From the NCBI GenBank assembly GCA_944325105.1, contig CALUYW010000018.1:1-40626 (forward strand): 40,626 bases of DNA. Reading direction: 5' to 3'. Positions 30,134-40,626 of the stretch are shown here, piece by piece (the stretch's first letter is position 1; each line of letters starts with the position of its first letter). Below the pieces are notes generated by a model, which saw only the letters and a list, made by a program, of their open reading frames with translations, had not been told where the DNA came from and made no database searches. This DNA comes from Candidatus Gastranaerophilales bacterium. GTDB taxonomy: Bacteria; Cyanobacteriota; Vampirovibrionia; Gastranaerophilales; Gastranaerophilaceae. The position numbers and the translations under genes are program-made.

Positions 30134-32602
30134 TTACTTTAGCTCTTTAAAACCGTTATCAAAATGTTCAACCCTGTAGGTCTTGCCTATGGGGTTTGAA
30201 ATTTTTATAGCCCCGAGTTCTCTTGTAAGAAGTACCTTGGTACCTGATTTTTGAAGAAGTTTAACGGTTTCATAAGACGGATGACCGTAGGTATTGTATC
30301 CGCTTAAAATTATCGAGTACTTTGGTTTTAATATTTTAAGCATATCCTCGCTAACTGAGTATCTTGCGCCGTGGTGACCTACTTTTAGAATATCAACGCT
30401 TTTGTGCAATTCTTTAATCTTAGAAAAAGTATCTGCGCTAACATCTGCCATAAAAAGTGCACGAGTGGAGTTTGATTTTGCAAGGGTTATTATGGAATTT
30501 TCATTATCCGCTTTATTTTTTGATGTGTTATTAAGATTTGCCGTATATGTTGTTAACTCTAAATTACCCTCTTTGTAGATAATTTCATTGTTTTTGGCTA
30601 TTTTATACTCTATATTTTCCTTATTTAGCTTCTCTAAAATCCTTTTCCCTATAGGTTCGCTTGGGTTGGAGTTTTGCAGATAAACTTTTTTAACTTTAAA
30701 ATCATTTAAAATATCGACTGCTCCGCCGCAGTGGTCTGAGTCAAAGTGAGTTATGATTAAAATTTCCAGTTCTTTTATATTTTTGTCTTTGAGGTACTCG
30801 CTTGTTATGATTTTTGCATCAGATAGTCCCTTGTAGGGCATTTTGCCTGTGTCTATCATTATGTATTTGTTCTTTTGAGTTTTAATTAACGTGCAATCGG
30901 AATTTCCCGTATCAAAAGCAAGTATCTCAAAATCACCCTCAGGCAGTTTGATAAAAGTTAAACAAAGTACTAAAACACAAGCCAAAAGCCCATATAGAAC
31001 CTTTTTATTTTTGAAAGATAATTTTATATTTTGAACAATTAAAATAAGCATAATCCAAAATAAAAGCATTTGAACAATATTTGGTGAGGGTGTTGTGATT
31101 ATTGAGTATTTAAGGGTCGAGAAGAATTTTGATATTTTAACAAGTAAAACTAAAAGCGGGTTAGAAATAATATCAAAAAATGCTATAAATTTTATCCCTA
31201 TAAATGGAATAAAGCCTAAAATCGAGCTTATAAAACCAAGAAAGCTTATAATCCCTATAAAAGGTACAACGCAAAGGTTTGCAAAAAGACTCCAAGGTGT
31301 AAAAGTGTTAAAGTAATACATCTGCAAAGGACATACAAAAAACTGCGCGCATAGAGGTACTAAAACCATTGCAAACAGTGATTTTGGCGATATTATCATA
31401 AGAGGAATTTTAAAAGCTTTAGGGTAGTCTTTAATCTTTTTAATAAAATCTTTCTGCAAGGCACTTGCTTTTTGCACTATCGGTTCAATTGATGAAATAA
31501 GACCAATAGTTACGATAAATGAAAGTTGAAAACCTACGTCAAGAAACATTTTGGGGTTAAATATTAACATAATAAACCCTACAAAGAAAATAAGAGCCAC
31601 GGGTTTTGATTGTCTGTCGATTAACTTACCTAAAAGTACAAAAAGAAGCATAATAGAGGCTCTTATAACAGATGGCGGAAATCCTGTCATAAAAGTGTAT
31701 AACACTACAAAAGCTATACCGCCCCAGATAGAAATTGTGTATGGAAGTCTGAGATTTTGCGCCAAAAACCACCAGATTCCAAAAATCAGCGCAACATTCA
31801 ATCCGCTTGCCGCCAAAAGGTGTAAAAGCCCCGAGTTTATAAAGCTCTGTTTTATTTCATCGGGCGGATTTATTGCTTCATTACCAAAAACTATCCCGCC
31901 AAGTATTTCAAGCTGCGGACTTTTTACATATTTTGCGTGCTTATCTGTTATCTTTTTTCTTGCAGTGTCTGTTTTATTCAGAATATACCACCAAAACTCT
32001 TCAAGATTTTTGTAATTGTCTGCTTTGCTTAAAATCTCAAAATTTTTGCCGTTTGAATACAAAATAGAAAAAGTGTCGTGGTATTTTAGGTATTTAGCGT
32101 AGTCAAATTGAGAAGGGTTTGTTGCTGCCTTTGGTTCTCTTAAATTTCCGCAGATTTTTATTTTATCCGAAATTTGAATTTCACCAAAACTTTTACTGTT
32201 ATCATTTATTGTTACAAGGGTTTTGGAGTTATTGATTTTATACGTTTTTTGATAAACTTCTGCCCTATCAACATCAAGGTAAAATTTTGCCCTTGTACCT
32301 TCTCTTGTTTTGGTTGGGATTGATGTTACTCTGCCATAAAGGCAGACGTTATTTGCATGGGTGTTGGCAAGTTCGTTTGTTTCTTTGATTGAATGTTTTG
32401 TGTTTATAAAACCTGCTATAAAAATAAGAAAAACAAAAAGCGTGTGTTTTGGTTTTATTAACCCTAAAAATATAAAAGCACACAAAATCAGCGCGCACAA
32501 AATCGCATACACTTCGCCGTTGGTGGTAATAAAAGTGCATATTCCAAGAATATAAGATATAGTTACTATAATAATTAAAATGGTCTTGTAGTTTGATTCC
32601 AC
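30134..32602 (-). CDS. comEC: DNA uptake channel protein ComEC/Rec2
   Basis: An 822-residue integral membrane protein that passes single-stranded DNA into the cytoplasm during natural transformation. An N-terminal domain (GRVTSIPTKTREGTRAKFYL region) is followed by the multi-helix competence domain starting at HLLAASGLNVALIFGIWW. A metallo-beta-lactamase-like nuclease domain follows, with THFDSDHCGG and KVGHHGARYS. The start is GTG with no ribosome binding site and sits at the apex of a perfect hairpin. No other competence gene is in the window. Confidence 0.93.
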   Translation of the reverse strand: MESNYKTILIIIVTISYILGICTFITTNGEVYAILCALILCAFIFLGLIKPKHTLFVFLIFIAGFINTKHSIKETNELANTHANNVCLYGRVTSIPTKTREGTRAKFYLDVDRAEVYQKTYKINNSKTLVTINDNSKSFGEIQISDKIKICGNLREPKAATNPSQFDYAKYLKYHDTFSILYSNGKNFEILSKADNYKNLEEFWWYILNKTDTARKKITDKHAKYVKSPQLEILGGIVFGNEAINPPDEIKQSFINSGLLHLLAASGLNVALIFGIWWFLAQNLRLPYTISIWGGIAFVVLYTFMTGFPPSVIRASIMLLFVLLGKLIDRQSKPVALIFFVGFIMLIFNPKMFLDVGFQLSFIVTIGLISSIEPIVQKASALQKDFIKKIKDYPKAFKIPLMIISPKSLFAMVLVPLCAQFFVCPLQMYYFNTFTPWSLFANLCVVPFIGIISFLGFISSILGFIPFIGIKFIAFFDIISNPLLVLLVKISKFFSTLKYSIITTPSPNIVQMLLFWIMLILIVQNIKLSFKNKKVLYGLLACVLVLCLTFIKLPEGDFEILAFDTGNSDCTLIKTQKNKYIMIDTGKMPYKGLSDAKIITSEYLKDKNIKELEILIITHFDSDHCGGAVDILNDFKVKKVYLQNSNPSEPIGKRILEKLNKENIEYKIAKNNEIIYKEGNLELTTYTANLNNTSKNKADNENSIITLAKSNSTRALFMADVSADTFSKIKELHKSVDILKVGHHGARYSVSEDMLKILKPKYSIILSGYNTYGHPSYETVKLLQKSGTKVLLTRELGAIKISNPIGKTYRVEHFDNGFKELK

Positions 32603-32613
32603 AAGACCATTTT
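32577..32613 (-). promoter_or_regulatory. Perfect 13-bp hairpin around the comEC start codon
   Basis: On the minus strand AAAATGGTCTTGT (32613-32601) and ACAAGACCATTTT (32589-32577) flank an 11-base loop. The GTG start spans the stem-loop junction. It could hide the start codon in the mRNA or act as a terminator for the gene upstream. Confidence 0.55.
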
Positions 32614-32627
32614 AAATTTTTATTCAA

Positions 32628-37852: not shown

Positions 37853-38981
37853 TTTTTATCAAAATGCAATTCAGACGCAAAAAGATTCCCTTAATTTTCG
37901 TTTCTTAAAACCGCTTGAAATTAAGGGTAAGTATATTTTTCAAGACGGGAGAAAACTCCTAAATCTCTCGTCAAATGACTATCTTGGAATAAGTACAAAA
38001 AAAGAAATCTTTAGGGATTTTTTAAGTTCTTACGATAAGCCTCTTAATGTCCCGTCAGCCAGACTTTTGTGCGCAAATACAAAATCTTACACTAAGCTTG
38101 AAGAGCTTTTGTGCGAGAAGTTTTCAAAAGAGGCGGCACTTCTTTTTAACAGCGGTTATCACGCAAATGTCGGGATATATTCTTCTCTTGCAAAAAATGG
38201 CGATGTGGTTTTTTGTGACAAGTTAAACCATGCAAGTATAGTTGACGGTATCCGTCTTTCTAAAAGTGAGCTTATACCCTTTAAGCACAGTGATTATGAT
38301 GATTTGGAAAATAAGCTTAAAAAATACAGAGCAAAGTATAATAATGCAATAATTTCAACTGAAGCACTGTTTTCTATGGATGGAGATTTTTGCGATATTA
38401 AAAAACTTATCGAATTGAAAGAAAAGTATAATGCTATACTTGTGGTGGATGAGGCACATTCTTTCGGGGTTTACGGTTCAGGGTTGGGTTTTTGTGCGCA
38501 AGAAGGTGTACTTGACAAAATTGATTTATTGATGGCTACTTTTGGAAAGTCTGTCGGCTCTTACGGAGCTTTTTGTGTGGGCGATAGGGTGCTTATAGAT
38601 TATCTGATAAACTTTGCACGCTCTTTTATTTTTTCTACTGTTTTCCCTCAAATAAATGCAGAGTTTTCTTATTATGTGCTTAAAAATTATATTTTTAAGT
38701 CTGATGAGTTCTCAAAAAAATTACTTGAGCTTACAGATTTCGCACATAAAAATCTCAAGGGTTTTAATGTTTTGGGCTCAAGCTATATTGTACCAGTGGT
38801 TTTTGGAGAAAATAAAAAGGCCATTGAAGCTTCAAAAAAACTTTACGATGCAGGGTATTATTGTCTGCCTATAAGATATCCTACAGTTGCAAAAAACTCG
38901 GCAAGACTAAGAATATCCTTGAATTCTGCTATTGAAGAAAGTGATATTTTTCGGCTTATTGACTATATGAAAAAATTATAA
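37836..38981 (+). CDS. Alpha-oxoamine synthase (BioF/KBL-like)
   Basis: A 381-residue PLP enzyme from ATG 37836; ATG 37809 lies deeper in the transporter gene. It has SNDYLGI, NSGYHANVG, VVDEAHSFGVYG (the PLP-stacking Asp) and TFGKSVGSYGAF (the PLP lysine). This group joins an amino acid to an acyl-CoA or acyl-ACP: alanine plus pimeloyl for BioF, glycine plus acetyl-CoA for KBL. The overlap with an alanine-type transporter favours an alanine-using enzyme such as BioF, but no other biotin gene is present. Confidence 0.8.
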   Translation: MKKLYSFYQNAIQTQKDSLNFRFLKPLEIKGKYIFQDGRKLLNLSSNDYLGISTKKEIFRDFLSSYDKPLNVPSARLLCANTKSYTKLEELLCEKFSKEAALLFNSGYHANVGIYSSLAKNGDVVFCDKLNHASIVDGIRLSKSELIPFKHSDYDDLENKLKKYRAKYNNAIISTEALFSMDGDFCDIKKLIELKEKYNAILVVDEAHSFGVYGSGLGFCAQEGVLDKIDLLMATFGKSVGSYGAFCVGDRVLIDYLINFARSFIFSTVFPQINAEFSYYVLKNYIFKSDEFSKKLLELTDFAHKNLKGFNVLGSSYIVPVVFGENKKAIEASKKLYDAGYYCLPIRYPTVAKNSARLRISLNSAIEESDIFRLIDYMKKL

Positions 38982-39280
38982 ACAGCCTTATAGAAAGTTT
39001 GGAGCTCTTTGTCGCTAAGCTTGTCCAGTATATTTAATATATCGCTTGTAATCTCTTTTCTGGTTTTTAGTGCTTGAGTTTGGAAAAAGTCGCTTAAATT
39101 CACGTTTAGTGCGTTTGCAATTTTGTCCAAGGTTTCAAGTGTTGGCATTGTATGGCAGTTTTCAATGCGGTTTATCGTTCGATGATTCATAGAAATCATT
39201 TCGGCTAATTTTTCTTGAGAAATTTTTTTTGCTCGCCTTATTTCCTTAATTCTTTCGCCAATTAGCCCAATATTGCTCAT
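38963..39280 (-). CDS. Small XRE-family HTH regulator, divergent from the prepilin gene
   Basis: 105 residues. The HTH (about 8-62) has RAKKISQEKLAEMISMNHRT and NRIENCHTMPTLETLDKIA. The tail TRKEITSDILNILDKLSD...FYKAVYNFFI parallels that of the XRE protein at 15 kb. AAAGGGG lies before the ATG. The 3' end overlaps the oxoamine synthase gene by 19 bases. The divergent gene is the prepilin-like adhesin, and the shared intergenic region carries two palindromes, so this protein is the obvious candidate repressor of itself and of the adhesin. Confidence 0.85.
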   Translation of the reverse strand: MSNIGLIGERIKEIRRAKKISQEKLAEMISMNHRTINRIENCHTMPTLETLDKIANALNVNLSDFFQTQALKTRKEITSDILNILDKLSDKELQTFYKAVYNFFI

Positions 39281-39333
39281 TTATACCCCTTTAAAGTATT
39301 TTAGTATCTTTGTTTTTTAAAAACTATGCATAT

Positions 39334-39345
39334 ATAAGTACTTAT
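39334..39345. promoter_or_regulatory. 12-bp palindrome ATAAGTACTTAT, candidate XRE operator
   Basis: A perfect palindrome lies just before the -35 box of the prepilin promoter. On the other strand it sits between TTGTCA (39356-39351) and a TATATG-type -10 of the XRE gene, where binding would block that promoter. The half-site also occurs before the paralogous XRE gene. Confidence 0.45.
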
Positions 39346-39349
39346 TTTA

Positions 39350-39378
39350 TTGACAACATGCATAAAGATGTCTATAAT
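39350..39378 (+). promoter_or_regulatory. Perfect consensus sigma-70 promoter of the prepilin gene
   Basis: TTGACA (39350-39355), exactly 17 bases, then TATAAT (39373-39378). All twelve positions and the spacing match consensus. The predicted start is near 39385, giving a leader of about 90 bases. Confidence 0.85.
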
Positions 39379-39394
39379 GTTGACATCTTTATGC
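39360..39394. promoter_or_regulatory. Perfect 13-bp inverted repeat around the -10 box
   Basis: GCATAAAGATGTC (39360-39372) and GACATCTTTATGC (39382-39394) flank nine bases that begin with the TATAAT box. The right arm covers the predicted transcript start, so this acts as DNA rather than as an mRNA hairpin. A second nested repeat, CAACAT/ATGTTG (39354-39382), overlaps it. This is a strong candidate operator. Confidence 0.7.
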
Positions 39395-39475
39395 GAAAAA
39401 ACCTGGAAATTTATAGTTGCATGTCTAATTCTTATTAGATTTAGACACTCTATTCTAAAAAAGGAAAGATACGAA

Positions 39476-40626
39476 ATGATTAAGAAATTTGCTTGCCACA
39501 AAAGTGGTGTGCGCCGTTATGTTGCGCAAAAGGGGTTTACACTTGCAGAGCTTTTAACTGCAGTACTTGTGATATCGGTTATTATGGTGGCGTTAGCTCC
39601 TGTTATAACAAAGAGGATGAAAGATAATATTACCGTACAGACTGATAATAGAGAGGGGTTAGAGATATATACCAATCCCGGTACTTATACATTTGATGTT
39701 CCTGTCGGTATTAATACATTATTTATTCAAGGTTCGGGAGGAGCAGGAGGTGGAGGAGGTTCTACTTATGTTGATAAGAGTATAAGTATAACTAATAATA
39801 CAAGTTGGACTGTTCCTGTTGGTGTTAATCAGGTTACTCTCACTATCACAGGTTCAGGTGGTGGTGGAGGGGGAAGTAATGGGATAGAGAATACTAATCA
39901 TCCTGACACAAATCCAAAAGTATACAATAACTCATGTAGTTCAGATGAATTTCTTGCAACAAGAGGCTCAAATGATGAACTTGATTTGTGTATTACAAAA
40001 GAGAATAAGTATTATAGCGGCTATTTAAAAGATTCTGATATTCCTTGTACAAACAACTACTGCTGCTGGAAGTCATCTGATATATATGCTTGTGGCAATG
40101 GAGGTTGCGGAAGAGTTGTATGTACATATAATGCTGCAAGTGCCACTTGCGAGAATTACAAAGTATACACTGGCTCAGATGGTTTTGCAAAAGGAGTTTT
40201 TACATATTCGCTACCGACAATGAATGAATGGAACAAAATAAAAAAATATTTGGGACCTTGGAACAGAGATATTGCATACGAAAATAGCATAAAATTATGT
40301 ACACATAATGCTTTTGAGACAGCAAATAAAGAACCTGAGAATGTAGCATATTGTGCCTCAGTCGCAGGATGTGGCGGACTAGGCTGTGGTCCTGCTAACT
40401 ACTGGATATTAAGGGCGGCCACTGGAGAATATATGAGATTTGCATATGATAACAGGGTGAGTCAATACCCAGCTATCACACCTGACGGGCTATATGCGTA
40501 CTCCGTCCGTTGTGTCCGTGCCCTCAATCGCATGAACAGATATAGTGGTGCAGGTGGTTCCTCAGGTGCTGTGATGGAGAAGACAATTAATGTTCTGCCT
40601 AAGGATGTGTTTGAGATAACGATAGG
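39476..40626 (+). CDS. Type IV prepilin-like protein with glycine-rich and FISUMP/lectin-like domains (3' truncated)
   Basis: 383 codons run open to the window end. AAGGAAAG lies seven bases before the ATG. The N-terminus has a basic leader and the prepilin peptidase site KG|FTLAELLTAV, followed by a hydrophobic helix. Then come two copies of a module, T-x-T-(F/V)-x-VPVG(I/V)N ending in glycine runs. A cysteine-rich domain follows (YSLPTMNEWNKIKKYLG, ANYWILRAATGEYMRF, YSVRCVRAL), which resembles FISUMP domains of the C-type lectin/FGE-like fold. A third glycine-rich part begins at the cut. It is likely a surface adhesin displayed through pilus machinery. Confidence 0.8.
   Translation, partial: MIKKFACHKSGVRRYVAQKGFTLAELLTAVLVISVIMVALAPVITKRMKDNITVQTDNREGLEIYTNPGTYTFDVPVGINTLFIQGSGGAGGGGGSTYVDKSISITNNTSWTVPVGVNQVTLTITGSGGGGGGSNGIENTNHPDTNPKVYNNSCSSDEFLATRGSNDELDLCITKENKYYSGYLKDSDIPCTNNYCCWKSSDIYACGNGGCGRVVCTYNAASATCENYKVYTGSDGFAKGVFTYSLPTMNEWNKIKKYLGPWNRDIAYENSIKLCTHNAFETANKEPENVAYCASVAGCGGLGCGPANYWILRAATGEYMRFAYDNRVSQYPAITPDGLYAYSVRCVRALNRMNRYSGAGGSSGAVMEKTINVLPKDVFEITI

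Follow-up and report, generated by a model that had tools for sequence, protein, structure and literature searches.

A full-consensus promoter with its -10 box enclosed in a palindrome suggests XRE-controlled expression of a prepilin-type adhesin in a Gastranaerophilales bacterium

Why is a promoter matching the consensus at every position placed in front of an adhesin gene, with its -10 box enclosed between the arms of an inverted repeat, and which protein would act on it? The window, i.e. the whole stretch of 40,626 nucleotides that was analysed, contains this promoter between two divergent genes, one encoding a small XRE protein and the other a prepilin-type adhesin. The features of the locus are as follows.

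38963 to 39280, minus strand: XRE (HTH_3) regulator of 105 aa, proposed repressor (Pfam HTH_3, E 8.8e-17)
39301 to 39349, no strand assigned: conserved stretch on the XRE side (43/49 positions the same in three species)
39350 to 39355, plus strand: -35 box TTGACA, read directly, the same in three species
39360 to 39372, no strand assigned: left palindrome arm GCATAAAGATGTC, core half-site ATGTC at 39368-39372
39373 to 39378, plus strand: -10 box TATAAT within the palindrome loop (loop 39373-39381 the same in three species)
39382 to 39394, no strand assigned: right palindrome arm GACATCTTTATGC, core half-site GACAT at 39382-39386, spanning the expected transcript start
39395 to 39412, plus strand: early leader (18/18 positions the same in three species)
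39476 to 40626, plus strand: prepilin-type adhesin gene, truncated by the contig end (N_methyl / GFxxxE motif)
39536 to 39760, plus strand: constant N-terminal segment of 75 aa, the same in each of the 14 near-copies of the genome
39860 to 40543, plus strand: hypervariable domain, predicted to be C-type-lectin-like (copy comparison and fold prediction)
40544 to 40626, plus strand: start of the shared downstream segment and site of the assembly break (copy comparison)

The promoter is as perfect as the preliminary description had read it, TTGACA and TATAAT matching the consensus at 12 of 12 positions with a 17-bp spacer (39350-39378) and representing the only full match with a spacer of 16-18 bp in the window. 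Judged from the -10 box, the transcript is expected to start at about 39385. Both arms of the palindrome are 100% complementary and enclose the -10 box in a 9-nt loop (TATAATGTT). Perfect 13-bp inverted repeats whose arms are no more than 20 nt apart occur twice in the window, at 39360-39394 and near 32575, against 0.07 on average when the window was shuffled 60 times with dinucleotides preserved, and the whole palindrome is single-copy in the 1.76-Mb genome with up to three mismatches allowed. Genome-wide, there are nine perfect TTGACA-17-TATAAT promoters and two in the reversed control, confirming that such promoters are rare. Promoter and palindrome are not chance products. The window's other perfect repeat of at least 13 bp (32575-32615) probably forms a long AATGGTCTTGT hairpin and lies at the start of a ComEC-like gene.

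The full-consensus promoters of this genome tend to adjoin small regulator genes: five of the nine have a divergent XRE gene next to them, and a short ORF downstream of a sixth presumably encodes a TrpR-type protein, which it resembles by eye. This fits the idea that promoters of such strength are tolerable as long as they can be silenced. The other full-consensus promoters divergent to small XRE genes (contig and position C1:166996, C2:45917, C3:54509 and C10:23661) each precede short ORFs.

Within the genus, the palindrome is present in 3 of 15 members, and the identical three hold an orthologue of the XRE gene (100, 94 and 87% identity, the next best match in the 15 genomes reaching 40%), while none of the 12 members without orthologue has it. 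Loss of the repeat in front of orthologues, which had been named as evidence that would speak against an operator, is therefore not observed. A search with the whole palindrome among relatives gave matches confined to the window's own clade. The promoter block is much better kept than the third codon positions of the XRE gene, with 57 of 63 positions (39350-39412) against 37 of 103 (36%) being identical in the three species. The perfection of the 13-bp repeat, stressed in the preliminary description, applies to this genome and is absent from both sister species, in which the arms pair at 11 of 13 positions in one and, over 14 bp, at 13 of 14 in the other; at arm position 2, T-A replaces C-G with pairing retained in one of them (G004), and at position 8 pairing is lost in both. 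Invariant in all three species is the core ATGTC-tataatgtt-GACAT, the sister species keeping ATGTC-N9-GACAT flanked outside by TAAA/TTTA, and the conserved block extends to about 39412. The conserved stretch on the XRE side, containing AAAACTATGCA which recurs in other genera, probably includes the XRE gene's own promoter.

The protein encoded at 38963-39280 belongs to the XRE family, scoring 61.3 bits against HTH_3 (curated cutoff 23), and the genome contains 21 XRE matches (paralogues). Its structure model (pLDDT 89) shows an HTH domain and two additional C-terminal helices. The best NCBIfam match is RstR (NF041951, E 4e-14), its 52.7 bits being under the cutoff of 80, and we do not assign the protein to RstR. 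The scan of neighbouring genes showed an aminotransferase-like gene and a Na/Ala symporter besides the prepilin; the bioF/kbl-like gene converges on the XRE gene, the two sharing 19 bases (38963-38981).

Homologues of this XRE clade in other genera are 46-61% identical, and the genes divergent to them encode glycosyltransferases or prepilins. Their divergent regions contain ATGTC-N9..11-GACAT around the -10 box, with a distance of about 75-90 nt to the XRE start in all but a few cases. The exact core is present in 21 of 31 full-length clade members compared to 0 of 61 other XRE or HTH-only matches, and with at most one mismatch in 24 of 31 compared to 3 of 61, counts that are descriptive as clade members are related and some loci represent one genome under two names; among 19 distinct clade promoters, 15 have at most one core mismatch and the other four have two. 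The pattern ATGTC-TATAAT-GACAT with fixed limits gave 13 matches in 288 genomes, eight being the divergent promoter of a clade XRE and five not lying beside one, and 12 matches in the reversed controls, so that a -10 box within a palindrome is not diagnostic by itself. In most relatives the loop measures 10 nt and the spacer, behind a TTGAYT-like -35 box, 18 bp; the window's clade is one base shorter there, so that its loop has 9 nt and its spacer the ideal 17 bp, a shortening being the presumed order of events. Relatives thus have the repeat core before prepilins and, in other genera, also before glycosyltransferase genes, so that its partner is the XRE gene more than the prepilin. At the loci in other genera in which XRE gene and operator lie opposite glycosyltransferase genes (L034-L043), the control unit seems to have been re-used before different surface-related genes.

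These data support a model, to which we assign a probability of roughly three in four, according to which promoter and palindrome make up the operator-promoter of a regulator gene and an adhesin gene in divergent orientation and the adjacent XRE protein is predicted to bind and repress it. As the core travels with the XRE clade, it is most likely the adjacent XRE protein that binds it and shuts the promoter. The protein would occupy the ATGTC and GACAT half-sites, which flank the -10 box and overlap the expected start; since the repeat spans the -10 box and the expected start, a bound protein would exclude RNA polymerase from the full-consensus promoter, making repression the natural reading. 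If the repressor were lost, sequestered or diluted, the promoter would fire strongly, resulting in production of the presumably lectin-tipped prepilin, and the XRE protein may also regulate its own gene. Several relatives have a right arm that forms a short palindrome by itself (GACAT-N2-ATGTC) and a left arm close to palindromic, and the arm centres are about 22 bp apart, i.e. two helical turns, favouring two XRE dimers that would clamp the -10 box at this distance; two dimers are assumed because the 14-15 bp between the core half-sites are long for a single XRE dimer. The palindrome being single-copy in the genome suggests a local rather than a global regulator. The on/off switch for the adhesin proposed in the preliminary description gains support from these observations as a predicted property of the locus.

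The fold of the XRE protein allows a different reading, in which it acts like the controller (C) proteins of restriction-modification systems on both divergent promoters, activating one of them, so that the adhesin would not simply be repressed. C.BclI and C.AhdI are among its closest folds, the HTH part is folded as in these and in C.Esp1396I and C.Csp231I, and the protein is similar in size and in its two extra C-terminal helices to C.Csp231I, which has about 100 aa and paired operator sites of 5-bp half-sites (PMC4321490); the palindromic arms of several relatives would also fit two dimer sites. We nevertheless consider such a controller unlikely, as the half-sites flank the -10 box and cover the start, a full-consensus promoter has no need of an activator, and no restriction or methyltransferase gene is present among the neighbours scanned, the corresponding position in other genera being taken by a glycosyltransferase or prepilin gene. 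With 21 XRE matches in the genome and binding by the adjacent protein being a prediction, another DNA-binding protein might use the palindrome instead; this is improbable given that the core follows this XRE clade across genera and is missing before other XRE genes, and that the palindrome occurs once in the genome.

The imperfect outer arms of the sister species would be expected if the palindrome were incidental and the promoter just strong and constitutive, a very improbable explanation in view of the chance rate of 0.07 per window and of a core that stays the same in three species and reappears in other genera. Inverted repeats this long can also serve as invertible or recombination sites or form RNA hairpins at the 5'-end, and switching would suit a surface protein, but we give hardly any credence to either use here. 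An invertible promoter was rejected, since the arms are just 9 nt apart and a single orientation is found in the genomes of the three species. For a hairpin, the left arm is located upstream of the expected start so that the RNA would not carry both arms, folding of the leader RNA barely beats shuffled sequences (z -1.69), and no Rfam family reaches its threshold.

The adhesin gene under this proposed XRE control is one of a family. The prepilin assignment is supported by TIGR02532 (22.6 bits, cutoff 16.3) and Pfam N_methyl (21.5 bits, cutoff 21.2). Together with 13 near-copies (55-63% identity over the sequenced part) the window gene forms a set of 14, and two divergent copies add to these; the DNA of the 14 is near-identical at both ends and highly divergent in the middle. 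Most copies are found at contig ends (C3, C4, C7, C9, C11-C16, C18, C20, C22, C23; the window is C18), and about half of the genome's contigs end inside prepilin-family copies, showing that the assembly gaps mark the shared downstream repeat. Three genomes of the genus (G002, G004 and G011) have 15, 14 and 15 copies and three further members 2 to 4; outside the genus, one or two copies per genome are found in three genomes only. The N-terminal segments are identical within the window's genome and the copies of other species are mostly 83-95% identical to them, which suggests concerted evolution of this segment. Two pairs of loci (L167/L168 and L160/L165) have a common leader and signal segment and unrelated upstream regions, as if different control regions had been joined to one leader by recombination. 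A leader element shared by several copies, GATACGAA, was discarded for lack of enrichment, the genome having 54 sites against 77 in the control.

For the variable domain, modelled with a pLDDT of 83.5, VIA-align returned many C-type-lectin and FGE-type chains with Z values of 7-9, including the C-terminal domain of Legionella Lcl, Treponema TvpA and the phage tropism protein Mtd. Foldseek by itself gave weak matches for this domain in the PDB (best E 0.01, none below 0.001), and Pfam Fib_succ_major matched below its cutoff (E 0.033). Judged by the predicted fold, the adhesin may be lectin-tipped.

At 15 of the 16 prepilin loci of the window's genome, a small divergent ORF is located close upstream, the remaining copy following a gene in the same direction. 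Clear HTH regulators are encoded at 12 of the 16, comprising ten plain XRE proteins, one MerR and one HTH protein with an S24 peptidase domain as in LexA/CI; among the other divergent ORFs, that of the 168 locus has an HTH match below cutoff, and Pfam gives no HTH match for those at the 162 and 163 loci. The copy opposite the HTH and Peptidase_S24 regulator of LexA/CI type (L174, C6, near 30087) may respond to DNA damage. Sister species keep the same regulators at the same loci with a median identity of 92%, the lectin domains at the same locus having a median identity of 25% and finding their best match between species at the same locus in 13 of 91 comparisons, these domain comparisons excluding the two divergent loci. 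At the window's locus, regulators are 87-94% and variable domains 32-35% identical across species, and the best match of its variable domain (59%) is at a different locus. At several loci a separate palindrome is conserved, e.g. TCTATCACGTTC-ac-GAACGTGATAGA in three species with 11-bp arms in a fourth, or ATATCAATATTGATATAATTATATCGATATTGATAT at another locus; upstream of the MerR-type, 166- and 169-type loci there is no notable palindrome. Putative private operators are, on this evidence, common at prepilin loci and not universal.

Whether these loci together form an adhesin switchboard we regard as an even bet. It would comprise about fifteen pilin copies whose ends are constant and whose lectin domains can be interchanged, nearly all connected to different regulators and many to separate palindromic operators, and regulators and promoters would remain in place as lectin domains are exchanged between loci. 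The cell could then choose its adhesins singly and evolution could re-pair specificity with control. No published account of this layout was found among open-licence papers, and we know of no described system having it.

By itself, the promoter-operator is of the familiar divergent XRE repressor-operator kind. RstR (the CTX phage repressor), DicA and P22 c2 are likewise small XRE proteins next to a divergent strong promoter with operator; in contrast to these phage-type repressors, a surface pilin and not phage genes would be controlled here. Different RstR types have their own operators, which parallels the private regulators. CIRCE, the HrcA operator, is also a promoter-proximal inverted repeat whose loop has 9 nt; its consensus is TTAGCACTC-N9-GAGTGCTAA, which the palindrome does not resemble, and a heat-shock gene is absent, so that we rejected this assignment. 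Membership among the restriction-modification controllers was rejected as well, the C-protein operator sequences GACTTATAGTC or CTAAGN5CTTAG (PMC4321490) being absent from the operator and no restriction-modification genes being present among the neighbours scanned.

The Neisseria pilE/pilS and Opa repertoires have, as here, multiple copies with constant and variable parts and gene-conversion-like homogenisation. The copies described here differ in that each has a promoter and a start codon of its own and most have a separate regulator. An arrangement of the pilE/pilS type, with one expressed gene and silent promoterless cassettes, does not apply to copies with own upstream regions and starts, nor does slipping of coding repeats as in Opa, the scan of the window's locus revealing just a weak 23-bp GGA run (score 32). 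Mtd, TvpA and the Legionella adhesin Lcl share the predicted fold of the variable domain; here, unlike in these, the entire domain varies between copies. Variable surface repertoires are usually governed by recombination at one expression site, slipping repeats or invertible promoters, whereas nearly every adhesin copy of this genome seems to be served by a DNA-binding regulator dedicated to it. Should this hold, the loci would supply a natural collection of repressor-operator pairs that possibly do not cross-react and would hint at how an uncultured gut lineage related to cyanobacteria might change what it sticks to, and the clear prediction made here could be examined in E. coli, with no need to grow the organism itself. 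Most copies of one sister species (G004, L192-L204) carry an in-frame palindromic insertion in the leader peptide, TGTCACCCTGAA...TTCAGGGTCTTATAA, encoding HPELVSGSYK, which we take to resemble the Rickettsia palindromic elements.
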